From positions 186,001 through 250,000 of the forward strand of contig NZ_FNCA01000001.1 of NCBI RefSeq assembly GCF_900100715.1: a stretch of DNA of 64,000 nucleotides, written 5' to 3'. This DNA comes from Methanolobus vulcani (GTDB lineage Archaea; Halobacteriota; Methanosarcinia; Methanosarcinales; Methanosarcinaceae). The notes beneath the pieces were generated by a model, which was not told the origin of the DNA, searched no databases, and saw only the letters and a program-made list of their open reading frames with translations. Positions within the stretch are counted from its first letter, which is position 1, and the number at the start of each line of letters is the position of its first letter. The position numbers and the translations under genes are program-made. Positions 27,714 through 58,446 of this stretch are shown here, one piece after another.

Positions 27714-27881
27714 GTATTCATTTCCTGTTTTTGTGCTGGGTATAAAAACAATAGAAGAAATATTCACCATAGTATGTAATTGATAAATATATTCAAACAA
27801 ACTTGTATATAAAATACAATGAATATGTAAAAAGTAGTATATTTATATATAATATATAAACACCGTGCGACATTGCATAAG

Positions 27882-27926: not shown

Positions 27927-30900
27927 TCAGAATTTTCTTCTTTTCCAGAATCCTATGTACACAACCCCTACTGTACCTAGAACAAATACAGAAGCTATTA
28001 TATCCGAACTTGTAGCTGTAAATCCACTATCGGTGGATGTAGTTACAGTTGCCTCATTTGTCATCTCATAACCTTCAACATAGTTATCAGGAGTGGACTT
28101 TGTAGAATCCTGAACTGGTGTATCAGCATCAAGACCAGCTCCCCCAGAATCTGTCATCGTGCTCTGGTTCGATGATCTGGACCCTGATACCATAGCTCTT
28201 TGGACAGAGTTTAATGAATCATCTTTAACTTTTGCTGAACTTGTGTCAGGCTGTTGCTGAGTCTGGAATTCATTTCTTTGCGTTGCATCGAACATCTTCG
28301 ATTTGTATGCATCTATTACCTGTTGACTGACTCCCGCTGCTGCCATGTTACCCTGAACGAACTCATCCAGCAACGGATTACCACATGTATGGTGGCAGCA
28401 TGTTGCCCCATTATCCGCGACCGATTCCATATATTCATTCACAAGGTTGTTGACAATATCGTCTGAGAACTCAACATAGCCTTTACGATAAGCTTCCAGC
28501 ATCCTACCGGTCATTGACTGATAAGCACCAGGGTTGTTTGCATTGAAGAACTCCCTCATTTCATCGTTTATGTATGTGTTATACACGGTTTCCCACATAC
28601 TATCATCAACAAGATCCGGGTTAGATACTTCCCATCCCCATAGATTGTCCACAAATTCAGACATCATTCTTGCACCGGCATAATCAGATGCCATCATACC
28701 TTCTATCCATTTATCGTTGAGATATCTGGAACGCAGGTTCGTAGTCAGATACTTTTCCATGGTAACCATTCCACTATTAGCAGAATCCCTTGTATCTGAA
28801 ACATACATCTCCGGTGTCTTGCCGGATACATATCTGGTTGCAAGGTTGAGACCTCCGAAGTACTGGAAGAAATCATCATTGTCCAGTGTATCGTAGAGGT
28901 TGGATGAATCTGAATGCACTGAAGCATCAACATTCATAAGGTTCTGTCTGAGAAGATCCGAACACTGCTGACCCCAGAGTTCTGTTCCATAGGCAAATCC
29001 CATCTTACTAAGATAAAGTTCTCCTATCTGGGCCTCGTCATCCCATGTACCACTTGCTTCTATTGCATTGGAAATACCTATCTCATAAGTTCCATCCATT
29101 ACAGCAAAGCAACGCATTGTTGAAACTTGGTCAGCAGTCTCATTATCATAACCGGCTTCAATCAATGCCTGTCTGATTGAGAGTGTACTCTCGTTAACAT
29201 AGTTGCTATAGTTTCCAGCCGGAGCAGTGTTTGCAAGTCTTACAGCCTCATCTATCATCTTTATCTTGTCAGGGAATGCATCTCTCATTCCTGCGGTTGC
29301 ATAGACGACATCAATACGAGGTCTTCCTGGATATTCACCATAACTTGGTGCAAGCTCTGACTCGTTCATTAATGTAAGACCGATTACCTGTTTGGAAGTA
29401 TCGTCCCATACTGGTTTTACTCCAAGTAGGTATAACATCTCAGCTTCAAGGGTTCCGTGATCTCTTATGAATTCCACACCGAACCTTGAAAATGATACTT
29501 TCTGTGGATATTCTCCATATTTATCATAGTAATCCACCAGCAGATCCTCCGCAAGTCTGGAGCCAAGATCCCATGTTGTTGGTGATGGATAAAGTCTTGA
29601 ATCTACTCCATAGAAATTGCGACCTGTTGGTACAGAATCAGTATTCTGTATCGGGTCTCTTCCAGGTCCTGGTGGGATAAAGCCTGCACTTAAAGCATCA
29701 AGTACCCGATCAAGCTCAGTAGCTGATACAAGAAGGTTATCCCTATGTATGATCCCATTTTCAAGCAAAGAAGTAATTGATGAATCATTATATCCATATA
29801 TCATATCCTGTGCCTGTGAAGGAACAGTGTTGTTGGTAACAACTTCCCATACAAGCCAGTCGATCTTTGTATCGTTGAATGGTATTCCAAGAGGGTACTC
29901 ATTTGTATCTGAATAGAAAGTGCTGGATACCTGAGTTTCAAAGCTGCTTCCAAGCATTGACCTTACCATTACAGACATCTGGTCATCCACCGGACCACTT
30001 GCATTCATCGGTGGAACTTCTCCTAGTATATGGAAACCATATGGTATGTTCTCCTCAGAGATCTCTTCCAGATATTCGTGGAGTACATTCTTTACAAAAA
30101 CCTGGAACAGAGTATCGTTATTCCTGTAGGTCTCAACCATGCTTTCATTCACATCGAGATCATTATCCAAATTGAGTTCTATCATCTGATCAAGTATTGT
30201 TTCTCTGTAACCGTTCCTGACCTCATCTGTTATTGCAGGGTCATAGTAAACCTGGATATTTGCTGCAATATCAGCCATATCACCATGAAGACCTCCGCGT
30301 TCAAGAGTTGGTGTAAGGTGGTCTATGATCAAAGCGTTTCCACGGTATTCTGCTGTTAGTCCTTCGCCTACGTTGGCTACGATATATGGATAAATGTTTG
30401 GCAGATCCTGCAAAAGAAGTGGTGCCCAGTCTGCTGTCCTGTTCATACCATATGCAAGTCCAGGAAGCCATTCGTGTGTACCGTGGGTACCAAGATGGAT
30501 AATTGCATCAGGATCCCAGTCTTTGTTAAGCCAGAGATAGAATGCAATGTACTGGTGTGTAGGAGGAACAACGGAGCTGTGGTACAGCACGTTATCATTC
30601 TGAGTAGAACCACGTGCCGGCTGTGGCATGAGCCATACATTTCCACACTGGACCGCCGGGATTACAATATATTTGCCGGTTTCATTTTCCCACATCATAA
30701 GTTTTTTATCTTCCGGGAAATCATCTGCCCAGGGTTCTCCCCACTCATTTATTACATCATCCCTGAGGTTTTGTGGGAGCTCAGTTTCAAACCATTCTTT
30801 ATACTCATCCATTGGTATGAGTTGAATTCCCCACTCAGTTCGATTGTTCACCATTTCTTCAAGAACTCCTGGTGCCCAGGAACCTGCATTTATTCCCTGC

Positions 30901-32237
30901 TCCATGATCATTTCCTGAAGAACTGTTTTGTTCTCCGGAACATTACTCAGAATGTAATCACTTTCATTCATCCTGTTAAGCAGGTTCATCATACTGGACA
31001 TGGTATCCAGGTAACTTGCTCCTACATTGTCCTTACCTGATGGATAGTTGTAATAGATAATACCAACTTTTTTGTCTGCATTGTCCTTGCGCTTGAGTTC
31101 GGTCCATTTGATGGCACGGTTGGTCATCCAATCTATCTGTGCAGCATTTGGCTTATACTCATAGACACCATATTCTATCTGTTTACTTTGTCCAAGTACA
31201 ATATATTCAAAGATACCGTCAATGTTCGGACTGACTGTTTTCCTTACAGCTTCTTCATTAGAGATTCCCCTGTTAGCATCTGCAGGATCTCCTGAATCCG
31301 AATCTGCAACCATACCTTTCAGAACAGGAACATCTAGATCTGTCAGCTCAGTTAGGCCATATCCCTCATACATGCTTACATCCATTCCAAAGCTCTTGAG
31401 AGATATCATACACTGAACCAATGGTTCCCCGTTTTCATCACAATAGTAGCCACTTACATTTAGGAATGTGTCAAAACCAGCTATAACATTACAACCCTTG
31501 CTTTCAAGATCATATATCAGGGCGTTGACAACTTGTGTGTTACCGTCTTTGTAATCAGATTTATGGAACCATATTCCAACACTGGGTTTAGAAGGATCGT
31601 ATGTATAATGTTCGCCATTTGATTGGTTCTGGTACCAGTCCAGATATTCAGCTGTAGTATCAAACCAGTAAGCATCTGCATCCGGGTGATAAAGACCCTG
31701 GGGAAGTATTACTGGTGCTTCACATGCCCAGCTATCTGTAAGTGAAGGATGGTTACCATAATTTTTTGCAAGATATATTATGAAATTTTCAGCATTCGAT
31801 CTCAGAAACTCTTCCTTCATTCCCATATTGAAGAAGTATTTTTCATCGTCACTTCCGTAGGGTTCACCACCACTGAAGTCATAATCATAGATAGAGGTAT
31901 CAATATAACTTGCAATATTCACAAGAGTAGTCCCGCTGGCATTAGCCTTCTCCATTTCATCAGAGAACTCTGCATATTTAGAACCCCATAGCATGTAGGT
32001 GAATATTACATCCTGATTGCTAAGATCAATAGCACTCAGGTTATTCTTTGTTGTAAAATATTGAACATTTATACTTTCACTATACACATTTGCATTTTTA
32101 GCATAATCGATCACTTCTGCATCATCATAGGTGATGAGAGTGACATTCACATGATTTTCATCTGCCACTGCAATTGTTGTTAATGATAATAACAACAGTA
32201 TACTTGCCAATAATATGGATCTTATTTTTACTTTCAT
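27927..32237 (-). CDS. Exported, C-terminally anchored CobN-like protein A
   Basis: 1436 residues from the ATG at 32235-32237, chosen because GGGGGAT lies just upstream and a signal peptide (MKVKIRSILLASILLLLSL) follows directly; an earlier in-frame ATG at 32336 would bury the signal. The body is the CobN/magnesium-chelatase H fold: YYNYPSGKDNVGASYLD, AIIHLGTHGTHEWLPG near residue 580 and an NVGEGLTAEYRGNALIIDH block. In the last block the usual AKRR is changed to AEYR. GATCCHHTCGN is near residue 1279. The tail ends in a hydrophobic helix and GFWKRRKF. CobN normally inserts Co(II) into a corrin ring with ATP from CobST; an exported copy must work differently. It is the last of three tandem paralogues. 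Function unknown. Confidence 0.88.
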   Translation of the reverse strand: MKVKIRSILLASILLLLSLTTIAVADENHVNVTLITYDDAEVIDYAKNANVYSESINVQYFTTKNNLSAIDLSNQDVIFTYMLWGSKYAEFSDEMEKANASGTTLVNIASYIDTSIYDYDFSGGEPYGSDDEKYFFNMGMKEEFLRSNAENFIIYLAKNYGNHPSLTDSWACEAPVILPQGLYHPDADAYWFDTTAEYLDWYQNQSNGEHYTYDPSKPSVGIWFHKSDYKDGNTQVVNALIYDLESKGCNVIAGFDTFLNVSGYYCDENGEPLVQCMISLKSFGMDVSMYEGYGLTELTDLDVPVLKGMVADSDSGDPADANRGISNEEAVRKTVSPNIDGIFEYIVLGQSKQIEYGVYEYKPNAAQIDWMTNRAIKWTELKRKDNADKKVGIIYYNYPSGKDNVGASYLDTMSSMMNLLNRMNESDYILSNVPENKTVLQEMIMEQGINAGSWAPGVLEEMVNNRTEWGIQLIPMDEYKEWFETELPQNLRDDVINEWGEPWADDFPEDKKLMMWENETGKYIVIPAVQCGNVWLMPQPARGSTQNDNVLYHSSVVPPTHQYIAFYLWLNKDWDPDAIIHLGTHGTHEWLPGLAYGMNRTADWAPLLLQDLPNIYPYIVANVGEGLTAEYRGNALIIDHLTPTLERGGLHGDMADIAANIQVYYDPAITDEVRNGYRETILDQMIELNLDNDLDVNESMVETYRNNDTLFQVFVKNVLHEYLEEISEENIPYGFHILGEVPPMNASGPVDDQMSVMVRSMLGSSFETQVSSTFYSDTNEYPLGIPFNDTKIDWLVWEVVTNNTVPSQAQDMIYGYNDSSITSLLENGIIHRDNLLVSATELDRVLDALSAGFIPPGPGRDPIQNTDSVPTGRNFYGVDSRLYPSPTTWDLGSRLAEDLLVDYYDKYGEYPQKVSFSRFGVEFIRDHGTLEAEMLYLLGVKPVWDDTSKQVIGLTLMNESELAPSYGEYPGRPRIDVVYATAGMRDAFPDKIKMIDEAVRLANTAPAGNYSNYVNESTLSIRQALIEAGYDNETADQVSTMRCFAVMDGTYEIGISNAIEASGTWDDEAQIGELYLSKMGFAYGTELWGQQCSDLLRQNLMNVDASVHSDSSNLYDTLDNDDFFQYFGGLNLATRYVSGKTPEMYVSDTRDSANSGMVTMEKYLTTNLRSRYLNDKWIEGMMASDYAGARMMSEFVDNLWGWEVSNPDLVDDSMWETVYNTYINDEMREFFNANNPGAYQSMTGRMLEAYRKGYVEFSDDIVNNLVNEYMESVADNGATCCHHTCGNPLLDEFVQGNMAAAGVSQQVIDAYKSKMFDATQRNEFQTQQQPDTSSAKVKDDSLNSVQRAMVSGSRSSNQSTMTDSGGAGLDADTPVQDSTKSTPDNYVEGYEMTNEATVTTSTDSGFTATSSDIIASVFVLGTVGVVYIGFWKRRKF

Positions 32238-32452
32238 ATTATCCCCCGAAATATTCCTGAACAGGCGAAAACTCCATAATTTCATCATGTTCGGATCTAA
32301 ATCGAATTCACAAAATCTGTTGAAACATGATTTCATCTATTTATCAATAAAATCCTGTACCAACAGGTAAATCAGTGTATTATTTTTCCGAACCACCGTA
32401 TATTAAATCGTATTATATATTAACTCAAAGGTATTGATAGTAATATATAAAT
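32238..32452 (-). promoter_or_regulatory. Promoter and long leader of CobN-like gene A
   Basis: A good TATA box (AATTTATATATTAC on the minus strand, 32439-32452) predicts transcription start near 32415 and an untranslated leader of almost 180 bases. The leader ends in GGGGGATAATATG, the same Shine-Dalgarno context as the other CobN-like genes. A CCGAACA/TGTTCAGG pairing is possible upstream of it, but the loop motif of genes B and C was not found here. Confidence 0.5.
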
Positions 32453-32514
32453 TAATACTTATGAGTTTTAAAACTAACACATGGAACTCATATAAAAGTT
32501 TCGTTTTGAATTAG

Positions 32515-32552
32515 CAAAAAAAAAAGAATGGCACTTTTACAAGAAAAGTACC
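32515..32552 (-). terminator. Terminator after CobN-like gene B
   Basis: On the minus strand GGTACTTTT (32552-32544) pairs with AAAAGTGCC (32538-32530), with one G-U pair and a five-base loop. The hairpin is followed by a run of T residues (32525-32516). This is a strong intrinsic terminator 12 bases after the stop codon. Confidence 0.85.
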
Positions 32553-32564
32553 AAAACCAATACT

Positions 32565-35500
32565 TCAGAATTTCCTTCTCTTCCAGAATCCCAGATACAT
32601 AGCTCCAACAGCTCCTACAACAAATATTGATGCAAAAACATCCGAACTTGAGAATGAAGGACTGTTCGTACTATCGGTATTGGTTACCGTTTCCTGTGTC
32701 ATCTCGTAGCCTTCGATATAATTATCAGGAGTTGATTTTCCTGAATCCTGCACTGGTGTATCATAATCCGTTCCTGCTCCTCCTGTCTCGGATATCATAG
32801 TCTGGTTTGATGCACCGGCAGCCATAGCTCTTTGGACAGAGTTCAGAGAGTCGTCCCTTGCTGTTATTGAACTGGTATCAGGTTGCTGTTGTGTCACAAA
32901 CTCGTCCCTCAGGGTAGCCTCATACATCAATTTATTGTATGCTTGCTGCATTTCAGGAGTGAGTCCTGCTGCCTGCATTTGTCCGGCTACGAAGTCAGCG
33001 AGTTGTGCATTACCACATGTGTGGTGACAACAGGTAACACCATTTTCAACCACCGATCTGACATATTCATTGACAAGATTATTCAAGGTATCATCTGAAG
33101 TTGTCCAGCCACCTTTCCTGATAGTTTCGATCATTCTGGCAGTTACAGACTGATATTGATATGCGTTCTCTTTCAGGAAGTCATCAACACCTATATTCTG
33201 TGAATCCCGGATAAGTGTGTCATATATCTTGTTCCAGTCCGAATCGGAAACCAGATCAGGAGTTGTTGCTTCCCAGCCCCACATATACTCAACTGCTTTC
33301 ATCATCTCCCTGGCACCAGCATAATCATACTCCATCATACCGTTCAACCAGCTTGGATTAAGATATCTGGCAGTAAGCTCTTTACTGAAGGCTTCTTGAA
33401 GAGTAATGACTTCAGGATTATCCACGCTTGTAAAGTCTGCAACAAACAATGAAACGTCAGTTCCACCAAGTGACCTTATAGCCAGACCAAGTCCACCAAG
33501 ATACTGATAGAAATCATCATTGTCGATCAGACCATAGAGGTTTGATGAATCACTGTGTATAGCTGCATCCACATCGACAAGATTGAGCTTGAACACATCC
33601 TCATAATTGTCGCCCCACACATCCGATCCATAAATATTTGACATTCTGGAAATGAACAGATCAGCAATCTCGGATGAATTCTCCCATGTATCACTTGCTT
33701 CTACTGCAGATGTTACACCGGTACCGTATGTTCCTTGGGCTTCACTGAATATCCTTGCTCTTGAAATGTAGTGTGCAATGCTTTCATTGTAACCCAGTTC
33801 AAGCATAGCATCTTCAATTGCAAGTGAATTCATTCTCACGTAATTTGTCTGATTGGTCTCATTGAGATCAGCAACCGTACGAACCGCATTATCCATTAGT
33901 TCAAGCTGGAATGGGAATGTATCACGGTAGAGTCCGGAAGGCACAAGAAGAACATCAATTCTTGGATGGCCAAGTTCTTCAGTAGAAATTACTTCAAACT
34001 CCCCATTAAGCCTGCCTGAAGTTCTCTTTGGTTTTACACCCAGAAGTTCGTATATCTGAGCTTCCATGAGACCTTCGTGACGCATTGTTTCAACAGACCA
34101 CAGAACAAATGACACCTTGGTCGGATATTCGCCATTCTCTGTGTAATATGAATCAAGCCATGCTTTTATCACTTCACGTCCTTGTGCTTCTGTTTCCTCA
34201 TCAGGGATCATTCTCTGGTCAAAACTATAGAAGTTGTTTCCAGTTGGTAACGCACCTGGGTTGCGGATCGGATCGTTTCCTGGTGCCGGTTCAATGTATT
34301 GGGAATTAAGAGCACGCAAAGTCTGACTGATCTCACGGGTTGTCTGTTCCAGATTATCAGCATATTCTAATGCAAGTTCAAGATCTGCTGTGATGGTTGT
34401 GTAGTTATCACCAAACAACTCTATCTGTGCAGTAGAGACATTTACTTCATCAAGCAATGTTGCATTCAATAACAATGTGGCATCAATACTTGCCTCTTCT
34501 TCCCATTCTTCCTGGCTTCCACTAGTCTTTGGAAGAATATCATAGATATGATCTGTGAAATCATCACCAAGCATTGACTTGACCATTGATACAAGTTTGA
34601 AATCCTCAGGTGCAACACCAAAGATATGCAATCCATAAGGCATCAGCTCAGACTGTAATTCATGCAGATATTCATGGAGTACACTATCCAGGAACGTCTC
34701 AAACTCATCATCTGTCATGACAGATAATTCTTCAGTTGAAACCCCAAGATCTTCACCAAGACTTAGGTTATCATAGAGTTGTATGGTACTGTTCCTGTAA
34801 AGCTCCATCATAACGGTATCACTGTCGTCCTTTGCATCATGATAGTTATGGATCTTATCATGCAGTGTCGCAAGGTCACCATAAAGTCCGGCTTCAACTA
34901 TCGGAGGTGTCAGGTGGTCAATAATTACTGCATTACCACGACGCTTTGCCTGTGTACCTTCACCAACATTATCCATGATGTACGGATAGACAACAGGAGT
35001 TTCTGCAACCATGATGGATGGATAATCATATCTCCACAGTCCCACTTCATTACCAGGCAACCATTCCTGAGTACCATGTGTACCGAAATGAATGATGGCA
35101 TCTGCATCATAACCATTGTTGATCCAGAAGTATGTTGCAAGGTACTGGTGTGTTGGTGGAATGGAGTCATTGTGATAAATGAGTGACTCATCAGAAAGAC
35201 CTGCCCTTGTTGGCTGTGGAATGAAATTGATGTTACCAAGCTGGATCGTTGGTATGACAAAGTACTCACCGCTTTCATTTTCATAGGTCATGATATTTCC
35301 AGGAGCTTCACCCCATGTATCTTCAACCTCTTCACGTACACTCTCTGGAAGTTCATTGTACCATACAAGATAATCATCCACAGGAAGTAGTGTAACATGA
35401 CCGCTTTCAACAACTTTTTCCAGTTCTCCGGGTGCCCATGTTCCAACATTCCTGCTGGTTATGAACAGATCAATGAACTCGCTTCCATTTGGAATTGTAT

Positions 35501-37697
35501 CATTTCCAACATCATATCCGGCTGATCTCATACTCTCCAGAAGCAGTGTGAAACTTGAACCAATATCCATGTAGCTGGCACCAATGTTGTTCTTACCACC
35601 TTCGTGGTTGTAATAAATGATGCTTACCTTCTTGTCAGAATTTGACATCTCGCCAAGTTCTGCCCATGCAATGGCCCTGTCACAGATCCATTCGATCTGG
35701 TAATCCAGAGGTTCGTAGTAATACTGCTCCGTTTCTTCATCCTGTTCCCTTCCGGCAATCCAGATGTAATCAGTAAGACCATCAATTTCTGCTTGTGTTA
35801 CCTGCCATGGTATACAACTAACACTCAGTCCCTTGGTGCTGTTGATGTAATCATCTGTTGTCTGATAGTAGTCCTGCACAGCCTTCAAAACCGGAACGTT
35901 GTAAGTTTCCCGGAGATACTCTACACCTTCTTCCTGACTACCATAGTTTAGATAGAATCCTTTCACAGAAATGATGGAATCCACCAGTACATCTCCATCT
36001 TTGAGGAAGTAGTCAACATCATCAGTACACACTGTATATGTTGTGTAAATAACATTGCATCCTTTTGATTCAAGACACCTGATAAGTGCATTCTCGGAGT
36101 TGAACTCAATTTCGGTCTGACCAAATTTGCCCCCTATTATTCCGATAGTAGGTGCTGATTCATTGTAACCGTGATCTGCATACCATTCCAGATATTCCGT
36201 ACTGTCTGAGAATATTCTTGGGAATGCATCCGGATGATAGATGCCATCTGTTGGAATCTCTGGTTCTGCCGGGTCTGCAGATTCTATGTAAACATTACCA
36301 AACATAGCTCCGACCCTGCGGATCCAGTTCTCCATATTGTCGTAACCATCATTATATAGATAATCAGTAAGTATTGAATATTGCTCACTTGACATATCAA
36401 AAGTTGCGATACCGTAGATATCTGCGAGCATTCCGAAAGTACCGATCTGTGCTCCGTTGGCCTGTGCCTCAAGAAGATCATCTTTTATCAGTGGAAGCTC
36501 GTTTGCTCCAACCATGTAAAGAATAATTACATCTTCATTCGAAATATCAATAGTACTATTAATGGCCTCTTCACCATTCATGACATTAACATTGAATCGG
36601 TCTGTGATTATTTTCCTTTCATCCAGTATTCGATTCAGGTAATAAGCACTGGTATCACGATTTATGATATAGGTCACATTCATCTTTGGCTGGATTATCT
36701 CCGGTGTGAAGGTCTCTGTTGTCCATAATCCAGTGAATTTCTGCCCCATTTCCTTGAGCATATTTTCCATGTTGGTCTCGCTGCCCTGTATCCAGAACCT
36801 TTCGATGTCGGTATATTCATCTGAATACATATCCACATTTGTCAGAGTGATATTCTCAGAAAGATTATATCCAATAACATTTGCACCTGCACCACGTGCA
36901 GCATTGATGCTGATTCTCCAGGTGTCATTTACCAGATCCTCTTCCTGTGATTCAATGAAGATGACGCCATAGTTTGAGAAGTTGAAATCATCGGGAACTT
37001 CATCTGTAGAAAGGACAGTTGTATTGAGCTGTAGGTCGATATCTTCTGTTGAAGCGGCGGTAATGAGTGCATCTTTGTTGAAGTCCGTACCAAGGATGAA
37101 CAGGAATTCTTCATAGTTTCTGTTTGAAGTACCCCAACTGTCTGTAATCTCTGAATGATTACCATATTCCTTTGCAAGATAGATCAGTAGGTTCTCAGCG
37201 TTCTCAAGTCCCTTACCTGAAGTATCCAGGTTGTTGAAATAAACAGCTATCGTATCATTTGCATCAATATTATTTGAATCTTCATAATATACCCTGTAAT
37301 CAAAATAAGTAGGTACTGTTGGAATTTTTGTCTTGATGCTCAACAGTGAAGTTCCGGAGTCATGCGCAGACTTTAGCGAATCATTGATAAGTTTATAGGC
37401 ATCACCGGAAACCATACTACAGAATACAACGTCCTGTGTTTCAAAGAAACCATTTTGTGCAGCTTCTATCACATCATCATTTACACATGGGTCTTTAGAA
37501 GAATCATAGTAATTAATGTAAGTGTAATCTATGAGATCACTATATGGATTTGTCTGGCTTGCAATTTCAAGTGCGTCACTTGGCTTATATGCAATGTAAG
37601 TTATGTTTATTTTTTCGTCTTCCGCTGCAGCAACACCTGTTAGTGCTGCCATCAACAATATACTTAATACCAATATCGATTTTATTTTTATTTGCAT
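32565..37697 (-). CDS. Exported, C-terminally anchored CobN-like protein B
   Basis: 1710 residues, longer than usual CobN (about 1250-1350). A signal peptide (MQIKIKSILVLSILLMAAL) is followed by at least two related N-terminal alpha/beta modules: one starting NITYIAYKPSDALEI, another near residue 345 starting MNVTYIINRDTSAYYL. The chelatase core has YYNHEGGKNNIGASYMD near residue 700, IIHFGTHGTQEWLPGNE near 867 and GEGTQAKRRGNAVIIDHL, so the core motifs are the least altered of the three paralogues. GVTCCHHTCGN occurs near residue 1554. The tail has STPDNYIEGYEMT, one membrane helix and GFWKRRKF. The gene has its own leader hairpins and terminator. It probably binds a tetrapyrrole or metal at the cell surface; substrate and direction of reaction are unknown. 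Confidence 0.9.
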   Translation of the reverse strand: MQIKIKSILVLSILLMAALTGVAAAEDEKINITYIAYKPSDALEIASQTNPYSDLIDYTYINYYDSSKDPCVNDDVIEAAQNGFFETQDVVFCSMVSGDAYKLINDSLKSAHDSGTSLLSIKTKIPTVPTYFDYRVYYEDSNNIDANDTIAVYFNNLDTSGKGLENAENLLIYLAKEYGNHSEITDSWGTSNRNYEEFLFILGTDFNKDALITAASTEDIDLQLNTTVLSTDEVPDDFNFSNYGVIFIESQEEDLVNDTWRISINAARGAGANVIGYNLSENITLTNVDMYSDEYTDIERFWIQGSETNMENMLKEMGQKFTGLWTTETFTPEIIQPKMNVTYIINRDTSAYYLNRILDERKIITDRFNVNVMNGEEAINSTIDISNEDVIILYMVGANELPLIKDDLLEAQANGAQIGTFGMLADIYGIATFDMSSEQYSILTDYLYNDGYDNMENWIRRVGAMFGNVYIESADPAEPEIPTDGIYHPDAFPRIFSDSTEYLEWYADHGYNESAPTIGIIGGKFGQTEIEFNSENALIRCLESKGCNVIYTTYTVCTDDVDYFLKDGDVLVDSIISVKGFYLNYGSQEEGVEYLRETYNVPVLKAVQDYYQTTDDYINSTKGLSVSCIPWQVTQAEIDGLTDYIWIAGREQDEETEQYYYEPLDYQIEWICDRAIAWAELGEMSNSDKKVSIIYYNHEGGKNNIGASYMDIGSSFTLLLESMRSAGYDVGNDTIPNGSEFIDLFITSRNVGTWAPGELEKVVESGHVTLLPVDDYLVWYNELPESVREEVEDTWGEAPGNIMTYENESGEYFVIPTIQLGNINFIPQPTRAGLSDESLIYHNDSIPPTHQYLATYFWINNGYDADAIIHFGTHGTQEWLPGNEVGLWRYDYPSIMVAETPVVYPYIMDNVGEGTQAKRRGNAVIIDHLTPPIVEAGLYGDLATLHDKIHNYHDAKDDSDTVMMELYRNSTIQLYDNLSLGEDLGVSTEELSVMTDDEFETFLDSVLHEYLHELQSELMPYGLHIFGVAPEDFKLVSMVKSMLGDDFTDHIYDILPKTSGSQEEWEEEASIDATLLLNATLLDEVNVSTAQIELFGDNYTTITADLELALEYADNLEQTTREISQTLRALNSQYIEPAPGNDPIRNPGALPTGNNFYSFDQRMIPDEETEAQGREVIKAWLDSYYTENGEYPTKVSFVLWSVETMRHEGLMEAQIYELLGVKPKRTSGRLNGEFEVISTEELGHPRIDVLLVPSGLYRDTFPFQLELMDNAVRTVADLNETNQTNYVRMNSLAIEDAMLELGYNESIAHYISRARIFSEAQGTYGTGVTSAVEASDTWENSSEIADLFISRMSNIYGSDVWGDNYEDVFKLNLVDVDAAIHSDSSNLYGLIDNDDFYQYLGGLGLAIRSLGGTDVSLFVADFTSVDNPEVITLQEAFSKELTARYLNPSWLNGMMEYDYAGAREMMKAVEYMWGWEATTPDLVSDSDWNKIYDTLIRDSQNIGVDDFLKENAYQYQSVTARMIETIRKGGWTTSDDTLNNLVNEYVRSVVENGVTCCHHTCGNAQLADFVAGQMQAAGLTPEMQQAYNKLMYEATLRDEFVTQQQPDTSSITARDDSLNSVQRAMAAGASNQTMISETGGAGTDYDTPVQDSGKSTPDNYIEGYEMTQETVTNTDSTNSPSFSSSDVFASIFVVGAVGAMYLGFWKRRKF

Positions 37698-37760
37698 GTT
37701 ATCCCCCGATAACGTGTGATGACACTCCCAATTCTTGCTTGGCGGCTTTTTGGGAGTGTC
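37698..37760 (-). promoter_or_regulatory. Two-hairpin regulatory leader of CobN-like gene B
   Basis: In RNA order, a perfect 11-bp stem, GACACTCCCAA (37760-37750) with TTGGGAGTGTC (37731-37721), encloses the loop AAAGCCGCCAAGCAAGAA. Seven bases later GTTATC-GGGG-GATAAC (37713-37698) forms a second perfect hairpin that holds the Shine-Dalgarno GGGG in its loop and touches the ATG directly. The gene C leader has the same architecture with a different but still paired stem and a similar loop. No B12 box was found. Confidence 0.7.
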
Positions 37761-37803
37761 TTAATTTTATCTAGTCCTATACCCTGGTCATTATTTCACA
37801 ATT

Positions 37804-37828
37804 GTAAAAATAGGCGCAAAAGGCACCT
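37804..37828 (-). terminator. Terminator after CobN-like gene C
   Basis: On the minus strand AGGTGC (37828-37823) pairs with GCGCCT (37817-37812), including one G-U pair, with a CTTTT loop. An ATTTTTAC tract follows. It lies ten bases after the stop codon and resembles the hairpin behind gene A. Confidence 0.7.
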
Positions 37829-37837
37829 AAAACGTTT

Positions 37838-40800
37838 TCATATCTTCCTCCTCTTCCAGAATCCAATATAGATCGAACCAACTAATACAGCTACAAATCC
37901 CATTGCAAGAACATCAGAACCTGAGATCGGTGGACTGTTAGGTGAGGTGGCATCAGAAACACTCGACGGAGTCATTTCATAGCCTTCTACATAGTCATCC
38001 GGAGTGGACTTTGAGCCTTCCTCCAGAGGTTGCACTGTATTTATTCCAGCTCCTCCTGATTTGGATGTTGAACTCTGGTTGGCTGCTGCCTGAGAGGCCA
38101 TTGCTCTTTGGACAGAGTTGAGTGAATCAGAAGAAGTAGGAGTACTTACAGACGTGTCTTTTACCACAATACTGGAAGTAGTAGCTTCTTTCATAATTTC
38201 CAGATATCTGTCAAGTTCAGCCTGAGTAAGTTCTCCTGCATCCACAAGTGCCTGTGCAATTCCAGTTATAAATTCCTGATTCAAAATATTTCCACAAGTG
38301 TGGTGGCAGCATGTAGCACCATTCTCATTGACTGACTTTATCTGCCGGGATACCAGATCATTAAGAGTCTCATCTGAAGCATCCCAACTTTCTTTTCTTA
38401 TAGTTTCAGTCATCCTTGCAAGCATGGACTGATACGCGTAGGGGTTATTTTTCTGCATCCAGCTGCTGAGCTCTGCATTACTCATATAGGTATCATACAC
38501 ACTGTTCCAGACATCATCACCGATGAGATTAGGACTCAGTGCTTCCCATCCCCAGAGATTCTCAAGGAATTCTGACATTTCACGTGCACCTTCAAAACCA
38601 CTTAGCTGCATTCCTGCTATCCATGATGGATTCAGGTATCTTGCATATAATTCGTTAGCAAGATATGTCTGAAGTGTTTGTATCTCCGCATCATTAAGGT
38701 CCTGCAGGTTTACCACATATGTTTCAACCTCATTACCAGTGATGTATTTGATAGCATTGTACAATCCACCCATGTACTGGTAGAAGTCATCAGTATCAAG
38801 GCAACCATATGTACTGGAACTTCTGCTGTGGAATATTGCTGCAGTTCCGTTAAGGTTATTCTCAAAGACCACATAATTATCGATATCAACTGCACGACCT
38901 GTCTGCTGCTCTATGTAATCGGCTATAGTCTGTCCCCAGATCTTTTCTCCGTAGACATAGCTCATCTTGCTGACATAGAGTTCTGCAAGTACACTGGTAT
39001 CATTCCATGTGTCACTTGAATCAACGGCATTTGCCATACCAGTACCATAGGCACCATCAGCCGGACCGAATACCCTGAACTGTGCGACATCAAGTGAAAG
39101 GTTGCCATCCTGTATTGTTTCGTTGAGAAGCTCCTGAATTACATCGGTGTTCTGGGTCACATAGTTGTCATATACATCAGTTTCTCCCTGTTCATAGGCA
39201 AGCCTCACTGCCTTATCGATGAGCTTTACCTTCATCGGGAATGTATCCCTGTAAAGACCGGATATCTGTACAAGTACATCGATACGTGGTCTTCCAAGTT
39301 CTGATGAATTGATTACTTCTACATCTTCAACTTCGCTGTTGTCAGCATTCCATACCGGCTTGATTCCCATCATGTAGAGTAACTGGGATTCCATTACGCC
39401 CTGGTGACGTGTTGATTCTCCTGCCCAGAGGATGTATCCTACCTTAGTTGGATACTCACCGTTTTCAGCATAATATTCTGCAAGCCACTCGTCAACAAGT
39501 GCCGTACCCTGTTCCCATGCTTCTTCAGTAGGTATGAGCTGTTCATCGAATGCATAGAAATTGCTGCCTGATGGGAGTGTCTCGGAACGAAGTACCGGGT
39601 CACCACCAAGGTTTGCACGGATATATTCACCATCCATTGCATTCAGTACCTGTTGAACTTCGTTGTCAGCTTCGCCAAGTAACTCAGCATAATTAATGGA
39701 AATATTGAGCTGTGAATCCATATCCGCATCCACATCAGAAATTCCAAGTATCTGCATCTGGGCTTCGGTTGTAGACATATTATCCAACAACACCAGTGAA
39801 AGCAGGTCTGTTGGTGCATCATCAGAACTGTTGTAAACTGCAACAAGGTCTGTGAAATCATCTCCAAGCATGGAGTTGACCATTCCTACAAGAACCTCTC
39901 CTTCAGGTGCTTCACCAAGAACGTGAAGACCGTAAGGCATGGACTGGCTCTTCAGTTCAGTAAGTATATCATCCAGCTCTTCAAGGAATTCATCGATAGT
40001 ATCTTCATCCTCTGCAAGACTCATGTTGACCTGTTCATCAAGTCCGAGATCAAGTGTCAGGTTCACTATACTCTGCAGATATGACTGTTTCAATTCTTCA
40101 TTTTCAGTGCTCAGTGTCTGACAAGAAGTGATGTCACTACTAAGACTGCTGTAATTTCCGTAAAGACCGGCAGATACAACAGGTGGGATCAGATGATCAA
40201 TAATAATGGCATTGCCCCTGCGTTTTGCCTGCATACCTTCACCCATTCCGTCCATTACGTATGGGTAGATGACAGGTATGTCTCCAACCATAAGGGCAGG
40301 CCATTCGTCACTCAGGAGACAGAAGTCCTTTCCGGGAAGCCATTCCACGGTTCCGTGTCTTCCCATGTTCACCATGACATCGGCATCGAACTCATGTTGC
40401 AACCAGAGATAGAATGCGATGTACTGGTGATGTGGCGGAAGTTCTGTATCATGGTAGAGTATCTCATTATCCTGCAACCATCCTCTTGTTGGCTGTGGTG
40501 CAAGTATCACATTGTCACTTATATTGATCTTAGGAATTACGATAAACTTATCACCGTTTTCATCCGTGTAAACCATTATTTCCCCGGGAGCTTCACCCCA
40601 TGTGTCAATTACTTCCTCTCTTCTCTCTTCAGGAAGTTCATTGAACCATGAAAGATAGGTGCTTTCAGGAATAAGCTCAACTTCGCCAGTTTCAACAAGT
40701 GCTTCAAGTTCTCCCGGTGCCCATGTACCAACATTCCTTCCCTGGTATGTGATAAGGTCTACAAGCTCTGTCTTGTTGGGTATCAGACTGCTGTTGATAT

Positions 40801-42766
40801 CATAACCTTCGTCTGCCATACCTTCAAGCAGGTTCACAATACTTGGCATGACTTCAAGATAGGAAGCACCTATGTTGTCTTTTCCACCACCGTGATTGTA
40901 GTAAAGTATGACTACTTTCTTGTCAGACTCATCTTCAGTTCCAAGGTCTGCCTGTGCAATGGCACGGTCGATTAGCCATTCTATCTGTTCATCGTGACCG
41001 ATGTATTTCTCAACGGTGTTGTTGCCTTCTACAAAAGTCTCCAGCGCACCAATCATAATCGGATCTATGAGACCATCTGTTTCAGGACCATATATCCTGA
41101 GCATATTTGTCTCTGGCAAAGGTGTGCTGGATTCTATCCATTCGCTGGTGTTCATGTATCCATTGAGAACAGCGTTTATGACAGGAACACCAAGTTCCTC
41201 AAGGTCAAAATAGTTACCACGATAATTGAATGATACTACTGTGTCAACCTTTGTTTCAGTACTATGATTGAAGTAATCATCTATATTATTAGCAGAATTA
41301 GCATAGCATGCAATCACATTTGCTCCTTTGTCCTCAAACCCTTCTATGAGTTTGTCGATAGGATCCATGTCATCAGGATAGTATGAGCCATAAAAAGTAA
41401 TACCTACTGTCGGTGCAGTTATATCAAAAGCATGTCCTTCTGATCGATTAGTGTACCAGCTAAAGTATTCATCAGCATCGTTTGTAAAATATTCAACAAG
41501 GGTTCCATTCATTGATGGATGATAAATAGCCCTCAATAAACCAGTGGGATCTTCTACAGTTAAATCCGAACGACCATAATACTCCTGAGCCAAGTAAAAT
41601 ATTAAATTGTCTAAATTAGTGTTATCAAATGAAGTCCCTGACCAGTAATCAGACAGAAGTTCTTTAAAACTTGATTCGTCTTCATCTGCGGGAATTGTAT
41701 AATTACTTTCAGGCAAATATGTATTTGAACCAATCACCAATGCACCATTATCGATGGCTTCCTGAACGGCAGCTTCAAATTCTGATGCACTCTGAGTAAC
41801 CATCACAATATAGATGATATCCGTATCACTTAGACTTATATTATCTGGCAGGTTAGTGGTGATATACGAACTTACGGTTATGTTCAACTCTGAATTTGAA
41901 TTAATTCTCTCTGTAAAATTTGCAAGTTCTTCCTCATATGAAGAATAACCTGTGATTATAGATACATTCAAATGAGGAGCATTTGAGGGCTCTTCAGTTG
42001 ACTCTCTTTTTGTAAGGAGAACTGAACATATTTTAGAATATTCCTTACCCATTCCTGATGAATAATAATAAGTTCTTCCTGATATTGATGATATCTTTGA
42101 TTTTGAGGTTAAAAGAAACTCCACTTCATCATGGTCGACATCGCCACCACTGTCGAGTGATACATTAAAATTAAAAATATCAGTTTCATTTACGCTTATG
42201 TCAAGTTCCTTATTGTAGTAAATAATGCTTCCACTTTTGAGTGTTTCATTAATAGCCACTATTGTGTAATTTCCTTCAGGAATACCTTCAAGTGTGAAGT
42301 TACCGTTTGCATCAGTTGTTGTATTTGCAACTACATATTCATCAGCATAAAGCAATGCTATTGTACATATTTTAGAATATTCTTTACCCATTCCTGATGA
42401 ATAATAATAGGTTCTTCCTGATATTGATGAAGTCTTTAGTTCTGAAGCTAAAAGAGACTCCACTTCATCATGGTCGACATCGCCACCACTGTCGAGTGAT
42501 ACATTAAAATTAAAAATATCAGTTTCATTTACGCTTATGTCAAGTTCCTTATTGTAGTAAATAATGTTTCCACTTTTGAGTGTTTCATTAATAGCAATTA
42601 TTGTATAATTTCCTTGAGGAATATCCTCAAATACAAAATTACCATCCGCATCACTGGTCGTATTAGCAACCAGATAGTAGTCATTTTCTTCTGACAATGC
42701 TGTTGTTGTTAGCGATAGTAACAACAATACACTTATGAATAATGTTATTATTACTTCTTTTTGCAT
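37838..42766 (-). CDS. Exported, C-terminally anchored CobN-like protein C with duplicated beta-sandwich module
   Basis: 1642 residues. A signal peptide (IITLFISVLLLLSLTT) is joined directly to the second half of a carboxypeptidase-regulatory-like module (DADGNFVFEDIPQGNYTI). A complete 113-residue module and then the first half of a third (SGRTYYYSSGMGKEYS) follow. The chelatase core has YYNHGGGKDNIGASYLE, VNMGRHGTVEWLPGKDF near residue 798, where the first His of the family motif is Asn, and GEGMQAKRRGNAIIIDHL. GATCCHHTCGN lies near residue 1484. The tail STPDDYVEGYEMT, a membrane helix and GFWKRRKI match the paralogues. It is the first of the three after the DUF2149 gene but has its own TATA-like box and leader. 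Confidence 0.9.
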   Translation of the reverse strand: MQKEVIITLFISVLLLLSLTTTALSEENDYYLVANTTSDADGNFVFEDIPQGNYTIIAINETLKSGNIIYYNKELDISVNETDIFNFNVSLDSGGDVDHDEVESLLASELKTSSISGRTYYYSSGMGKEYSKICTIALLYADEYVVANTTTDANGNFTLEGIPEGNYTIVAINETLKSGSIIYYNKELDISVNETDIFNFNVSLDSGGDVDHDEVEFLLTSKSKISSISGRTYYYSSGMGKEYSKICSVLLTKRESTEEPSNAPHLNVSIITGYSSYEEELANFTERINSNSELNITVSSYITTNLPDNISLSDTDIIYIVMVTQSASEFEAAVQEAIDNGALVIGSNTYLPESNYTIPADEDESSFKELLSDYWSGTSFDNTNLDNLIFYLAQEYYGRSDLTVEDPTGLLRAIYHPSMNGTLVEYFTNDADEYFSWYTNRSEGHAFDITAPTVGITFYGSYYPDDMDPIDKLIEGFEDKGANVIACYANSANNIDDYFNHSTETKVDTVVSFNYRGNYFDLEELGVPVINAVLNGYMNTSEWIESSTPLPETNMLRIYGPETDGLIDPIMIGALETFVEGNNTVEKYIGHDEQIEWLIDRAIAQADLGTEDESDKKVVILYYNHGGGKDNIGASYLEVMPSIVNLLEGMADEGYDINSSLIPNKTELVDLITYQGRNVGTWAPGELEALVETGEVELIPESTYLSWFNELPEERREEVIDTWGEAPGEIMVYTDENGDKFIVIPKINISDNVILAPQPTRGWLQDNEILYHDTELPPHHQYIAFYLWLQHEFDADVMVNMGRHGTVEWLPGKDFCLLSDEWPALMVGDIPVIYPYVMDGMGEGMQAKRRGNAIIIDHLIPPVVSAGLYGNYSSLSSDITSCQTLSTENEELKQSYLQSIVNLTLDLGLDEQVNMSLAEDEDTIDEFLEELDDILTELKSQSMPYGLHVLGEAPEGEVLVGMVNSMLGDDFTDLVAVYNSSDDAPTDLLSLVLLDNMSTTEAQMQILGISDVDADMDSQLNISINYAELLGEADNEVQQVLNAMDGEYIRANLGGDPVLRSETLPSGSNFYAFDEQLIPTEEAWEQGTALVDEWLAEYYAENGEYPTKVGYILWAGESTRHQGVMESQLLYMMGIKPVWNADNSEVEDVEVINSSELGRPRIDVLVQISGLYRDTFPMKVKLIDKAVRLAYEQGETDVYDNYVTQNTDVIQELLNETIQDGNLSLDVAQFRVFGPADGAYGTGMANAVDSSDTWNDTSVLAELYVSKMSYVYGEKIWGQTIADYIEQQTGRAVDIDNYVVFENNLNGTAAIFHSRSSSTYGCLDTDDFYQYMGGLYNAIKYITGNEVETYVVNLQDLNDAEIQTLQTYLANELYARYLNPSWIAGMQLSGFEGAREMSEFLENLWGWEALSPNLIGDDVWNSVYDTYMSNAELSSWMQKNNPYAYQSMLARMTETIRKESWDASDETLNDLVSRQIKSVNENGATCCHHTCGNILNQEFITGIAQALVDAGELTQAELDRYLEIMKEATTSSIVVKDTSVSTPTSSDSLNSVQRAMASQAAANQSSTSKSGGAGINTVQPLEEGSKSTPDDYVEGYEMTPSSVSDATSPNSPPISGSDVLAMGFVAVLVGSIYIGFWKRRKI
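42026..42703 (-). repeat. 339-bp tandem duplication inside CobN-like gene C
   Basis: The unit starting at 42026 recurs at 42365, an offset of 339 bases (113 codons, in frame). About 108 consecutive bases (from about 42119 and about 42458) are identical, followed by one mismatch and a further identical stretch, so the copies are recent or kept alike by gene conversion. Confidence 0.85.
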
Positions 42767-42827
42767 GTTATCCCTCGATAACGTGCAGCATTTCGGCTAC
42801 TTTGCTTGCAGGCTGTGCCGAAATGCT
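42767..42827 (-). promoter_or_regulatory. Two-hairpin regulatory leader of CobN-like gene C
   Basis: In RNA order, AGCATTTCGGC (42827-42817) pairs perfectly with GCCGAAATGCT (42797-42787) around the loop ACAGCCTGCAAGCAAAGTA. Four bases later GTTATC-GAGG-GATAAC (42782-42767) forms a hairpin with the Shine-Dalgarno GAGG in its loop, abutting the ATG. A TATA box (TTTATATT, near 42862-42870) would start transcription about 10-15 bases before the first stem. Confidence 0.7.
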
Positions 42828-42917
42828 CCACCGTCTTTTCATGTTCCTATCCACCAACCCCAATATAAATCAAAATTGAGTTAAAACAAATCAACTTGTT
42901 TAATTGTTCGAAAAAAA

Positions 42918-43298
42918 TTAACCGGAAGTACTATTCTCGACCTTCTTCTCTTCATCTTCAGGTACGTAAACAACTCTTCCATCCGCAAGTTTGTAGGCAG
43001 TTCCCAATGCTTCACCCTGTCCACCGCCAATCTGTTCTGTCATGTTCAGTACCTCAAGGGGTTTGCCTTCTTCCTTAATGATAATCTGCATATCCTTCTG
43101 CCCTGGGTTTTTCACAAGAGTAATATCCTCTGTAGGATTTAGAAGCTCAGGCATCTGGTAGGACATAACAAGTGCTACGAGTAATGCAACTGAAAAAACC
43201 ATGGCAATATCAAAAAGGTTGGCAACCCCGGTTAAGGGGTTCTGTTCATCCTCATTATTTATGAGCCCTGTTCGCCTGTACCTTCTTCTCCCTTTCAC
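42918..43298 (-). CDS. DUF2149 protein, ExbD/MotB-like stator partner
   Basis: 126 residues. A basic N-terminus (KGRRRYRRTG) is followed by the motif NPLTGVANLFDIAMVFSVAL and a single membrane helix. Then comes a small domain (DITLVKNPGQKDMQIII, KLADGRVVYVPE) predicted to lie outside the membrane. This is the topology of ExbD, TolR and MotB, where an Asp at the start of the only helix carries protons; the Asp of NLFDIAM sits at the equivalent place. It overlaps the ExbB/MotA-like gene by four bases, so the two are almost certainly a complex. Its role with the CobN-like proteins is inferred from position. Confidence 0.82.
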   Translation of the reverse strand: MKGRRRYRRTGLINNEDEQNPLTGVANLFDIAMVFSVALLVALVMSYQMPELLNPTEDITLVKNPGQKDMQIIIKEEGKPLEVLNMTEQIGGGQGEALGTAYKLADGRVVYVPEDEEKKVENSTSG

Positions 43299-43918
43299 TC
43301 TTCAACCTCCAGTGTGTCAAGGATATAATCTATATCAGCCATGTCCTGCCAGTACCATCTTTTTCTTACCTGGGTAAGAACATAACCGATGGTTCCTGCG
43401 AAAAGTCCGATAACGGTTGTCGCAAAAGCTATCATAAGATTGTTTGCAAGCTGGACAATATCACCTTGTGAAAGACCAATAAGCGCTGGGCCCAGCGGAA
43501 TAAGTGTCCCCATAAGACCAAGCATTGGTGAGATCGTTGCAACGATCCTGGTCTGTTCCAGTCTTTTTGCCATTCTTATCTCATATTCCTGAGAAAGCCA
43601 TTCAATGGCAGGTAACATGTTCTTTTCCAGATGGCCAGCTGCAGATTCTGCAAAGCTCATGACCATATAGTTCTGTTTAATGTTGCGAAGGGATTTTGCT
43701 GCCTTATCGAATTGCCGAGAACCCACCTGTTCCCTGACATCATTGCAGCAAAGTTCAAGATTTTCGATATCTCTATGTCTTTTTGCATATTCCGAAAGGA
43801 ATTCCCCTATGAGCATCAGAGAAAATACCACAAGCAATATGAGAATGATAATTACCGGGTACAGCAATGATGCTGAAAATGTGTATAATATACCAAACAA
43901 CGAAGAAGTAGCATCCAT
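43295..43918 (-). CDS. MotA/TolQ/ExbB-type proton channel protein
   Basis: 207 residues. A first membrane helix (LLYPVIIILILLVVFSLML) is followed by a cytoplasmic helical region of about 90 residues. Two more helices carry the family signature: RTRIVATISPMLGLMGTLIPLG-type sequence near residue 120 and ANNLMIAFATTVIGLFAG near residue 160. These match the conserved MotA/TolQ/ExbB core with the helix-breaking Gly-Pro and the Thr/Ala residues lining the ion path. Such proteins form pentamers around two ExbD-type subunits and turn proton flow into mechanical work. It is coupled to the DUF2149 gene by a four-base overlap and lies two bases downstream of the DUF2162 gene. Confidence 0.92.
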   Translation of the reverse strand: MDATSSLFGILYTFSASLLYPVIIILILLVVFSLMLIGEFLSEYAKRHRDIENLELCCNDVREQVGSRQFDKAAKSLRNIKQNYMVMSFAESAAGHLEKNMLPAIEWLSQEYEIRMAKRLEQTRIVATISPMLGLMGTLIPLGPALIGLSQGDIVQLANNLMIAFATTVIGLFAGTIGYVLTQVRKRWYWQDMADIDYILDTLEVEE

Positions 43919-43920
43919 TT

Positions 43921-44595
43921 TTATTGACCTCTTATGCTATTGAGCGCATAGCCTCCAATTATGAATATTGATAATATCAACAGAGGAACTATCTCGAAAT
44001 CTCCGCCTGTACTGAATTCCATGCTGAGTTTCTTTGCTTTGATGTAAGCGGGAACTATCATTGCTCCGAGTAGATAGAAAAGCCCGAGGAACATCATTGC
44101 GGTTCCAAGATCCTCAGGTGTGCGTTTCATTTTCCTGAAGATGAATGTTGATGATATTACTGAAATGAAGAAAACAAGTCCTACTATGATCCCAACCTTC
44201 CAGCCACTCATTTCCAGGGTTGAGGCCAGTATCATGCATGATACAAAAAGAGCTGTGAGACATACAGGACAGGGAACTGATATCACAAGGAAGGTCTTTT
44301 TAGAGACATCATGCCCACAGTTCCATTTTTTCTGCGTGTAGACGCCTGCAGTGATAAGAAGCAGTGCAATGAAAACGTGTAATGTCATTCCAAGATTTGC
44401 TATCTTTTCAAGATAGGACTGGTCTACCATTTCCACAAGGCTTCCAAGTATGATGGAGATAAGAAAATAACCACTTGCAAGTATCAATACATCTTTTTTC
44501 TTTACAGTTGAAAAGCCACATCCAACCCCGGTCTTTAGCCCGAAGATAAAGATGCCTATCAGTATGCCGATTACGGCAGCATATACGTAACTCAT
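43921..44595 (-). CDS. DUF2162 putative membrane transporter
   Basis: 224 residues with about six or seven membrane helices. Cysteines are placed as GVGCGFS near residue 25, CGH near residue 93 and a CPVC pair near residue 108 inside a helix. This pattern suggests metal or thiol chemistry, as in DsbD- or nickel/cobalt-type transporters, but the family function is not established. The start shares the GGGGGAT Shine-Dalgarno context with the CobN-like genes. It is the first gene of the DUF2162-ExbB-DUF2149 unit, and a TATA box within an inverted repeat lies 110-140 bases upstream. Confidence 0.82.
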   Translation of the reverse strand: MSYVYAAVIGILIGIFIFGLKTGVGCGFSTVKKKDVLILASGYFLISIILGSLVEMVDQSYLEKIANLGMTLHVFIALLLITAGVYTQKKWNCGHDVSKKTFLVISVPCPVCLTALFVSCMILASTLEMSGWKVGIIVGLVFFISVISSTFIFRKMKRTPEDLGTAMMFLGLFYLLGAMIVPAYIKAKKLSMEFSTGGDFEIVPLLILSIFIIGGYALNSIRGQ

Positions 44596-56361: not shown

Positions 56362-56518
56362 GATTCTCCATTCTTAGTTTATTGACTATGATTAGTCCTT
56401 TTATACAATAAAGATATAGATAGTGCAGAAAAACTGACTTGTAATAAGTATACTATTTATTACGAAATTACAAAATTATAATAATCTACTAGAATCAACC
56501 AAGTTTATCGGGATAAAT

Positions 56519-57649: not shown

Positions 57650-58446
57650 TGGAACAGAAAAGGATAGCCATTTACGGAAAAGGCGGAATTGGAAAATCCA
57701 GTACAGCTTCCAATGTTGCAGCAGCCTGTGCCGATGAGGGTTACAAAGTCATGATCATCGGATGTGATCCGAAGAGTGATTCATCCATCACACTTCTTGG
57801 CGGTAAGAGAGTACAAACCATCCTTGACCTTCTCAGGCAGAAGATAGATGTCAAGGAAGAAGACATCGTCCACGAAGGCTACAAAGGTGTAAAATGCGTG
57901 GAAGTCGGTGGACCGGAGCCTGGAATCGGTTGTGCAGGACGCGGTATCATCGTTGCTATTCAGAAGCTCAGGCAGATGTGCAAGTCCATTGATGATATGG
58001 ATCTAATCATTTACGATGTCCCCGGAGATATCGTATGTGGCGGTTTTGTAGCACCCATACGCAAGGGACTTGTAAACGAGGCTTACATTCTTACATCAGG
58101 CGAATACATGCCACTCTATGCTGCAAACAATATCTGCAAGGGACTTGCCAAGATTGACACACCCCTTTCCGGCATAATCTGTAATTCCAGAAGCGTTACA
58201 AGGGAAGAAGAAATTGTGAGGAAGTTCTCAGAGGAGATTGGCAGCAAGCTTATGGCTTTCATTCCAAAGGAGCAGATCGTCCAGGACTGTGAAAGAGATG
58301 GATTTTCTGTGCTTGAAAAAGCTCCTGGTTCATCTGTAGCAGGTGTTTATCGAGATCTGGCACATGCTATTATGTCCAACGACAGTTCCGTACTGCCTTC
58401 ATCACTTGAAGACGAGAGACTGCGTGAACTTACACGTAAGGTTTGA
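57649..58446 (+). CDS. cfbC: CfbC, NifH-like reductase subunit
   Basis: 265 residues. Walker A is [14 protein letters not shown] at the N-terminus. The Cys ligands of the bridging [4Fe-4S] cluster lie in [10 protein letters not shown] (near 95) and [10 protein letters not shown] (near 130), as in NifH and BchL. It passes electrons to CfbD with ATP hydrolysis. The close fit with cfbD and cfbB, and the absence of nifD/K, identify it as the F430 reductase rather than nitrogenase. GGAGG precedes the ATG. Its TGA overlaps the next ATG. Confidence 0.96.

Follow-up and report, generated by a model that had tools for sequence, protein, structure and literature searches.

A Methanolobus vulcani operon encoding predicted surface-anchored CobN-family proteins and an ExbB-like/DUF2149 pair: a probable archaeal form of the BtuS/HmuS-U-V module

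The window analyzed here is a stretch of 64,000 nucleotides from the 2.95-Mb genome of Methanolobus vulcani (G000:C8:186001-250000). Six genes were confirmed, all on the minus strand and arranged in reading direction as T-U-V-S3-S2-S1. T (43921-44595) encodes a DUF2162 membrane protein (Pfam, 1e-68) with about seven predicted transmembrane (TM) helices, U (43295-43918) an ExbB/TolQ/MotA-like stator protein (Pfam MotA_ExbB, 3e-11), and V (42918-43298) a DUF2149 protein (Pfam, 2e-35) that is ExbD-like in position and layout. The other three, S3 (37838-42766; 1642 residues), S2 (32565-37697; 1710 residues), and S1 (27927-32336; 1469 residues as listed), encode CobN-family proteins with a full CobN-Mg_chel domain (1061, 1102, and 973 bits, respectively); S3 also matches NF004645 with 2386 bits at a cutoff of 1619. 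T and U are separated by 2 nt and U and V overlap by 4 nt, while the gaps V-S3, S3-S2, and S2-S1 measure 151, 140, and 228 nt. Sequence-based prediction gives each S protein a hydrophobic segment at the N terminus and a TM helix at the C terminus, the latter followed by KRRK; the true start of S1 is probably the internal Met34 (~32237), which would give a normal signal peptide. The sequence-only reading of this DNA, which had described an exported, C-terminally anchored CobN-like trio beside ExbB-like, DUF2149, and DUF2162 genes, thus proved correct for all six genes and their positions, with the localization being a prediction.

S1 to S3 are the only CobN-family genes of the genome. Between its signal peptide and the CobN domain, S3 contains two near-identical carboxypeptidase-regulatory-like repeats (residues 25 to 255). 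Downstream of S1, the same strand encodes two large subtilisin-like proteases, both exported and containing long repeat domains (18574-22890 and 23010-27800). MurE/F-like and NifD-like genes resembling the F430 biosynthesis genes cfbE and cfbD are located at 54925-59924, about 10 kb from the operon with housekeeping genes in between. A riboswitch was sought within the window and none was found, and no corrinoid, heme, or metal transport gene stands beside the window's own operon; most archaeal copies of the module likewise stand alone, without such neighbors.

U was aligned with ExbB by hhalign at E = 3e-41, and its TM threonines are conserved (T138 in 130 of 130 and T168 in 124 of 130 homologues). 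According to sequence and structure model, V features a basic N terminus, one TM helix, and a small external β-domain; the model was of low confidence and was left out of the fold search. The TM residue Asp30 of V, part of the motif N-L-F-D, is Asp in 130 of 131 homologues and Glu in the remaining one. The profile comparison of V with ExbD was not significant, though layout and TM Asp agree, and V as a proven ExbD homologue was rejected for this reason. No TonB C-terminal domain (TonB_C) was detected in the genome, which has only two ExbB-like genes, both adjoining DUF2149. The second U-V pair (locus L039, G000:C8:160000-179999, 10739-11721) immediately follows an S-layer-like gene whose product has a PGF-type tail; neither T nor S nor a protein with the tail box described below adjoins it. 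The T protein, modeled with a pLDDT of 85, gave no match better than E 0.29 in a structure search against the PDB. It carries a P-C-P-x-C motif, present in 66 of 69 homologues, which would be compatible with the handling of soft metals or with thiol chemistry.

Conservation of the gene order T-U-V-S extends across the archaea and to many phyla of bacteria. Among 393 genomes sampled from the phylum, DUF2149 is present in 116 and CobN in 233, and for the window's family a comparison of the two lists gave CobN in 56 of 57 DUF2149-positive and 0 of 5 DUF2149-negative genomes. T-U-V-S or S-T-U-V was observed in most of 40 archaeal neighborhoods, across archaeal families, and T-U-V-S also in Desulfo-, Nitrospiro-, and Verrucomicrobia relatives. 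Almost all of 80 named, mostly bacterial loci retrieved with the U profile have U-V-S or T-U-V-S, where T in Bacteroidota loci is counted by position only, and 109 of the 126 loci containing both U and V also have S. The linkage of CobN-, ExbB-, DUF2149-, and DUF2162-encoding genes, for which a check in relatives had been proposed, is therefore a conserved one.

Class I chelatases work with AAA+ partners, and the distribution of such partners separates two kinds of CobN protein. A C-terminal TM helix is found in 96 of 103 full-length CobN proteins of U-V loci, the seven unanchored ones being mainly cytosolic CobN genes nearby, versus 0 of 17 CobN proteins away from U-V. Conversely, a ChlI/D-like ATPase lies near CobN in 2 of 109 S-U-V loci versus 11 of 16 loci without U-V (Fisher, 1.7e-10). 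In the S tree, in which two rows labeled cytosolic are merely cut off by locus ends, cytosolic CobN forms a single clade, and the three window paralogues belong to three separate archaeal subfamilies common to other genera. One cytosolic CobN (G343; 1258 residues) comes with its own extra ATPase genes. The M. vulcani genome does have one ChlI/ChlD pair, on another contig, but this pair occurs throughout the genus, including members without any CobN (G242, G373, and G398), and is for that reason no evidence of a partner; a partner ATPase elsewhere in the genome was rejected on the same ground. The anchor and ATPase counts, the tree, and the ChlI/D distribution together indicate that exported CobN proteins swap the ATPase for U-V. 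The earlier claim that the trio lacks an ATPase partner thus stands insofar as ChlI/D is not coupled to the S genes, and requires amendment in that the genome does hold one pair. Database names (NF004645 "CobN") and the existence of this pair might suggest that S is an ordinary cobaltochelatase CobN working with ChlI/ChlD; in view of the predicted export of S, the occurrence of the pair without CobN, and the separate clade of cytosolic CobN with its own ATPase, we regard this as extremely improbable.

The linker preceding the C-terminal TM helix of the S proteins is of low complexity and unconserved except for a short box with the consensus V-E-G-Y-E-M. The three window copies, all on the minus strand, read V-E-G-Y-E-M in S3 (37973-37990) and S1 (28062-28079) and I-E-G-Y-E-M in S2 (32700-32717). 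In general, the box has the form V-x-G-(Y/F)-x-M and is located about 22 residues ahead of the anchor, starting 16 to 29 residues before the TM helix. A loose form, [VIL]xGxx[MLVI], was found in 90 of 98 anchored S proteins versus 8.9 expected from shuffled linkers (maximum of 17 in 500), and the strict aromatic form in 69 of 98 versus 0.3 in shuffles. Positions left free in the loose pattern are conserved as well (Y or F in 67 of 90, E in 50 of 90). The box is absent from cytosolic CobN, bar one chance-like match in 19, and HmuS, the bacterial relative discussed below, has at most a degenerate version. When 26 genomes of the genus were searched with an 18-base codon pattern for the box, 38 matches were obtained versus 2 for the reversed control; by coordinates, 37 of the 38 follow closely on the region of an S gene that encodes the CobN domain, and the remaining one falls in a small protein gene that comes immediately after S. 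In locus L054 (15676-16035), the gene immediately following S encodes a secreted protein of 119 residues that is TM-anchored, matches no Pfam family, and carries the box VKGYDM.

In U-V units without S, the adjoining surface protein has a similar box and a TM helix: a BtuF-like binding protein in L082 and L083, a 1966-residue protein in L079, and a 648-residue β-helix protein in L087. Twenty further archaeal loci fetched as a test yielded giant proteins with VSGFPFG, VFGYPFG, or TGHPFG tails. The first pattern, ending in [MLVI], missed these P-F variants; once they had been seen, the last position was relaxed, and the new pattern was then checked against shuffles and nonadjacent anchored proteins. 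G[YFH]x[MF] was found in 14 of 32 U-V-adjacent anchored non-CobN proteins versus 0.5 expected from shuffling and 2 among 41 nonadjacent ones (Fisher, 1e-4), with many of these loci coming from related genomes so that the counts are not fully independent; one of the two nonadjacent matches is the small protein beside S. By these sequence comparisons, the box appears to go with U-V and not with CobN, and as far as the literature consulted shows, a U-V-linked tail box is new. Giant archaeal surface proteins of ~1600 to 2700 residues with box tails stand beside U-V in L225, L229, L231, L237, and relatives; one of them contains CARDB, PQQ, and α-α toroid domains and is encoded next to cobS, cbiB, and an FecCD importer. 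These giant proteins are candidate surface corrinoid receptors.

The tail could also be read differently, the box being a trafficking or processing signal, or docking back onto S, while U-V energizes T or another protein. A C-terminal tail with a TM helix and a basic end does resemble sorting tails, and the contact of box and V is a prediction. However, the box starts 16 residues or more from the TM helix, whereas PGF-CTERM signals abut it, it is common to archaea and bacteria, and it occurs on non-CobN proteins beside U-V and in units without T. We consider such a role rather unlikely and favor the box as a docking site for the U-V pair.

The closest solved relative (PDB) of S2 and S3 is HmuS (S2 versus 9d26, 2.6e-136), the heme de-chelatase of gut Bacteroides (PDB 9d26/9p4s), which acts outside the cytoplasm (PMC12583661). 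In Bacteroidota the gene order is hmuY-R-S-T-U-V, encoding a hemophore, a TonB receptor, a CobN-like protein, a membrane protein, an ExbB-like protein, and a DUF2149 protein (PMC10434189). Profiles of U and V built without Bacteroidota matched HmuU and HmuV at 1e-44 to 1e-58; the corresponding T profile gave no significant match to HmuT in a three-sequence test (E 0.008 to 0.3). U and V are consequently homologous to HmuU and HmuV, and T is equivalent to HmuT by position only. HmuT as a DUF2162 protein was rejected, as the profile without HmuT finds no significant match. DUF2162 is common to the window operon and bacterial loci with a B12 riboswitch, not to HmuT loci, and in the S tree HmuS is not sister to archaeal S. 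BtuS, a name credited to Rodionov 2003 in PMC6460266, was put forward there as a third class of CobN proteins, and a role in metalloporphyrin salvage has been proposed for the family. Hmu-like operons with a B12 riboswitch have been noted in Bacteroidetes (PMC10100974). For archaea, two such proteins of Methanosarcina barkeri were called BtuS in a proteome study, which found them to respond to the iron/sulfur source, with a rise under an altered iron source, and stated the operon to be missing (PMC10846266), and the archaeal use of HmuS/CobN homologues was considered unclear because complete hmu operons are missing there (PMC12583661). Based on the sequence relationships, the operon appears to be the archaeal form of the bacterial BtuS/HmuS-U-V module. 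The statement of the sequence-only reading that no assigned function was known is not supported, since HmuS is a characterized heme de-chelatase and BtuS a named family.

HmuU and HmuV have been assigned to the TonB receptor (PMC12583661). In Trichlorobacter, a separate exbB-exbD-tonB set is located beside U-V-S, which makes U-V an unlikely TonB energizer in that organism; together with the absence of TonB in M. vulcani, this argues against the published assignment to the outer-membrane receptor. The inner half of the operon is intact in single-membrane archaea without TonB, which speaks for the chelatase itself as the target of U-V.

Which substrate the S proteins handle was judged from the neighborhoods of relatives and from active-site residues. 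Of 19 bacterial T-containing loci scanned, 15 have a cobalamin riboswitch on the same strand, and two of the four lacking one are truncated close to T. T-U-V-S is inserted between CbiM and CbiQ of a CbiM..CbiQO cobalt transporter set in L094, and the module continues a cbi operon in L096. Among archaeal loci, T-U-V-S directly precedes tetrapyrrole methylases and a CbiG domain (L161), FecCD and an ABC ATPase lie just before T (L088), and CobS, CbiB, FecCD, and a PGF-CTERM binding protein accompany V-U and a giant box-bearing protein that weakly resembles transcobalamin (L225). Nickel contexts occur also, with hyp genes in Runella and nikR in Azospirillum. His538 of HmuS, in the motif HFG(T/A)HG, is kept in all three S proteins (GTHG, GTHG, and GRHG in S1, S2, and S3). 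His1209 and Glu1212 (LSLDHxxEFMGG) are replaced by Asp and Gln in S1 to S3, and the head-neck heme ligands Met79 and His254 are not conserved in the S alignment, in which the head region aligns weakly. Two anchored S proteins (L075, 3488-8251; L077, 10235-14965) have the GTHG motif deleted and, on account of this loss, would not be chelatases by the His538 route. A Methanothrix-type locus (L179, 3-476, and L072) combines, within ~30 kb, T-U-V, ChlI, cytosolic CobN, BtuF-like proteins, and a CbiK/CbiX-like protein that appears to be exported.

Given the B12 riboswitches and corrinoid genes by relatives and the missing heme-ligand residues, a corrinoid or cobalt is the more likely substrate compared with heme iron, although neither riboswitch nor corrinoid gene occurs beside the window's own operon. 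The alternative that S1 to S3 are archaeal HmuS proteins stripping iron from heme outside the cell, with Fe(II) entering by FeoB, would agree with HmuS as the nearest solved sequence, with the clear homology of U and V to HmuU and HmuV, and with the retained catalytic His538; the response of M. barkeri BtuS to an altered iron source (PMC10846266) is a real counter-hint in favor of iron. It is difficult to reconcile with the replacement of the second axial ligand His1209 and of Glu1212, the loss of Met79 and His254, the association of T with B12-riboswitch loci instead of HmuT, and the position of HmuS in the tree, and we judge it improbable. S might also be an uptake receptor without metal chemistry that, powered by U-V, hands an intact corrinoid or tetrapyrrole ring to a BtuCDF-type importer. 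The box-bearing non-CobN surface proteins by U-V and next to FecCD/Peripla_BP_2, CobS, and CbiB are in line with this idea, as is the BtuF-like binding protein that carries the box itself; the chelatase site at His538 kept in all three S proteins and the position of the L094 module inside a cobalt-ion transporter set, which points to free metal, speak against it and leave it doubtful.

The explanation we consider best, and to which we assign roughly even chances, is that a U-V motor remodels a BtuS/HmuS-type chelatase at the surface, with a corrinoid as the likely substrate. In this model, the class I chelatase-type proteins S1 to S3 would lie on the external side of the membrane and have a metal-tetrapyrrole as ligand, with a corrinoid the most likely one, while U and V would form an ExbB/ExbD-like stator driven by protons or sodium ions. 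The external domain of V would grip the V-x-G-Y-x-M box in the flexible S tail, and movement of the motor would open, close, or pull S, thereby supplying, without TonB, the remodeling that AAA+ subunits (ChlI/D, CobS/T) give to the cytosolic relatives for ATP. The outcome may be release of the metal, for which HmuS provides the analogy, or else transfer of the ring, and T may carry the product across the membrane. Ion-gradient-driven remodeling of a metal-tetrapyrrole surface protein, as put forward in the sequence-only reading, remains the best model and is strengthened by the box common to U-V neighbors; what we infer on our part is the coupling, the substrate, and the direction of metal transfer. 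Against the coupling, the box may have a role in some other step that these proteins share, and HmuS turns over heme in vitro with NADH and without U-V (PMC12583661), so that in that system the chemistry has no strict requirement for U-V. More generally, and somewhat more tentatively, the ExbB-like U and DUF2149 may constitute a TonB-free motor for anchored surface proteins that engages a C-terminal docking box, V-x-G-aromatic-x-M/F, replaces the AAA+ ATPase in the BtuS/HmuS branch, and drives giant corrinoid salvage surface proteins in other archaea. At stake is whether a motor run by ions takes the place of an ATPase in a chelatase family. Of the whole analysis, the U-V-linked tail box has the greatest value, since a peptide or a point mutation can put the motor-coupling idea to the test. 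The operon further points to a surface route by which methanogens may salvage corrinoids or metals, and it marks many "cobaltochelatase subunit CobN" annotations as misleading.

Among known systems, HmuS-T-U-V shares with the window operon an anchored, exported CobN-family S protein with the chelatase residue His538 and adjoining homologous U and V genes. The window operon differs in having no HmuY, HmuR, TonB, or outer membrane, in a T protein of the DUF2162 type that is not significantly related to HmuT, and in S proteins that lack the heme-ligand residues, occur as three paralogues, and possess an intact tail box. The BtuS family is likewise CobN-like, exported, and membrane anchored, with B12-riboswitch versions known (PMC10100974), whereas an archaeal operon with T-U-V was previously undescribed. 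With ExbB-ExbD-TonB, the operon has in common an ExbB homologue, U, and in V a matching layout and TM Asp; it contains no TonB, V is not significantly similar to ExbD, and the partner S, whose own anchor lies in the same membrane, has a box of a different kind. The class I chelatases CobN-CobST and ChlH-ChlI/D belong to the same catalytic protein family as S, but they are cytosolic, driven by an ATPase, and devoid of U-V, tail anchor, and box, whereas the S proteins are predicted to be exported.
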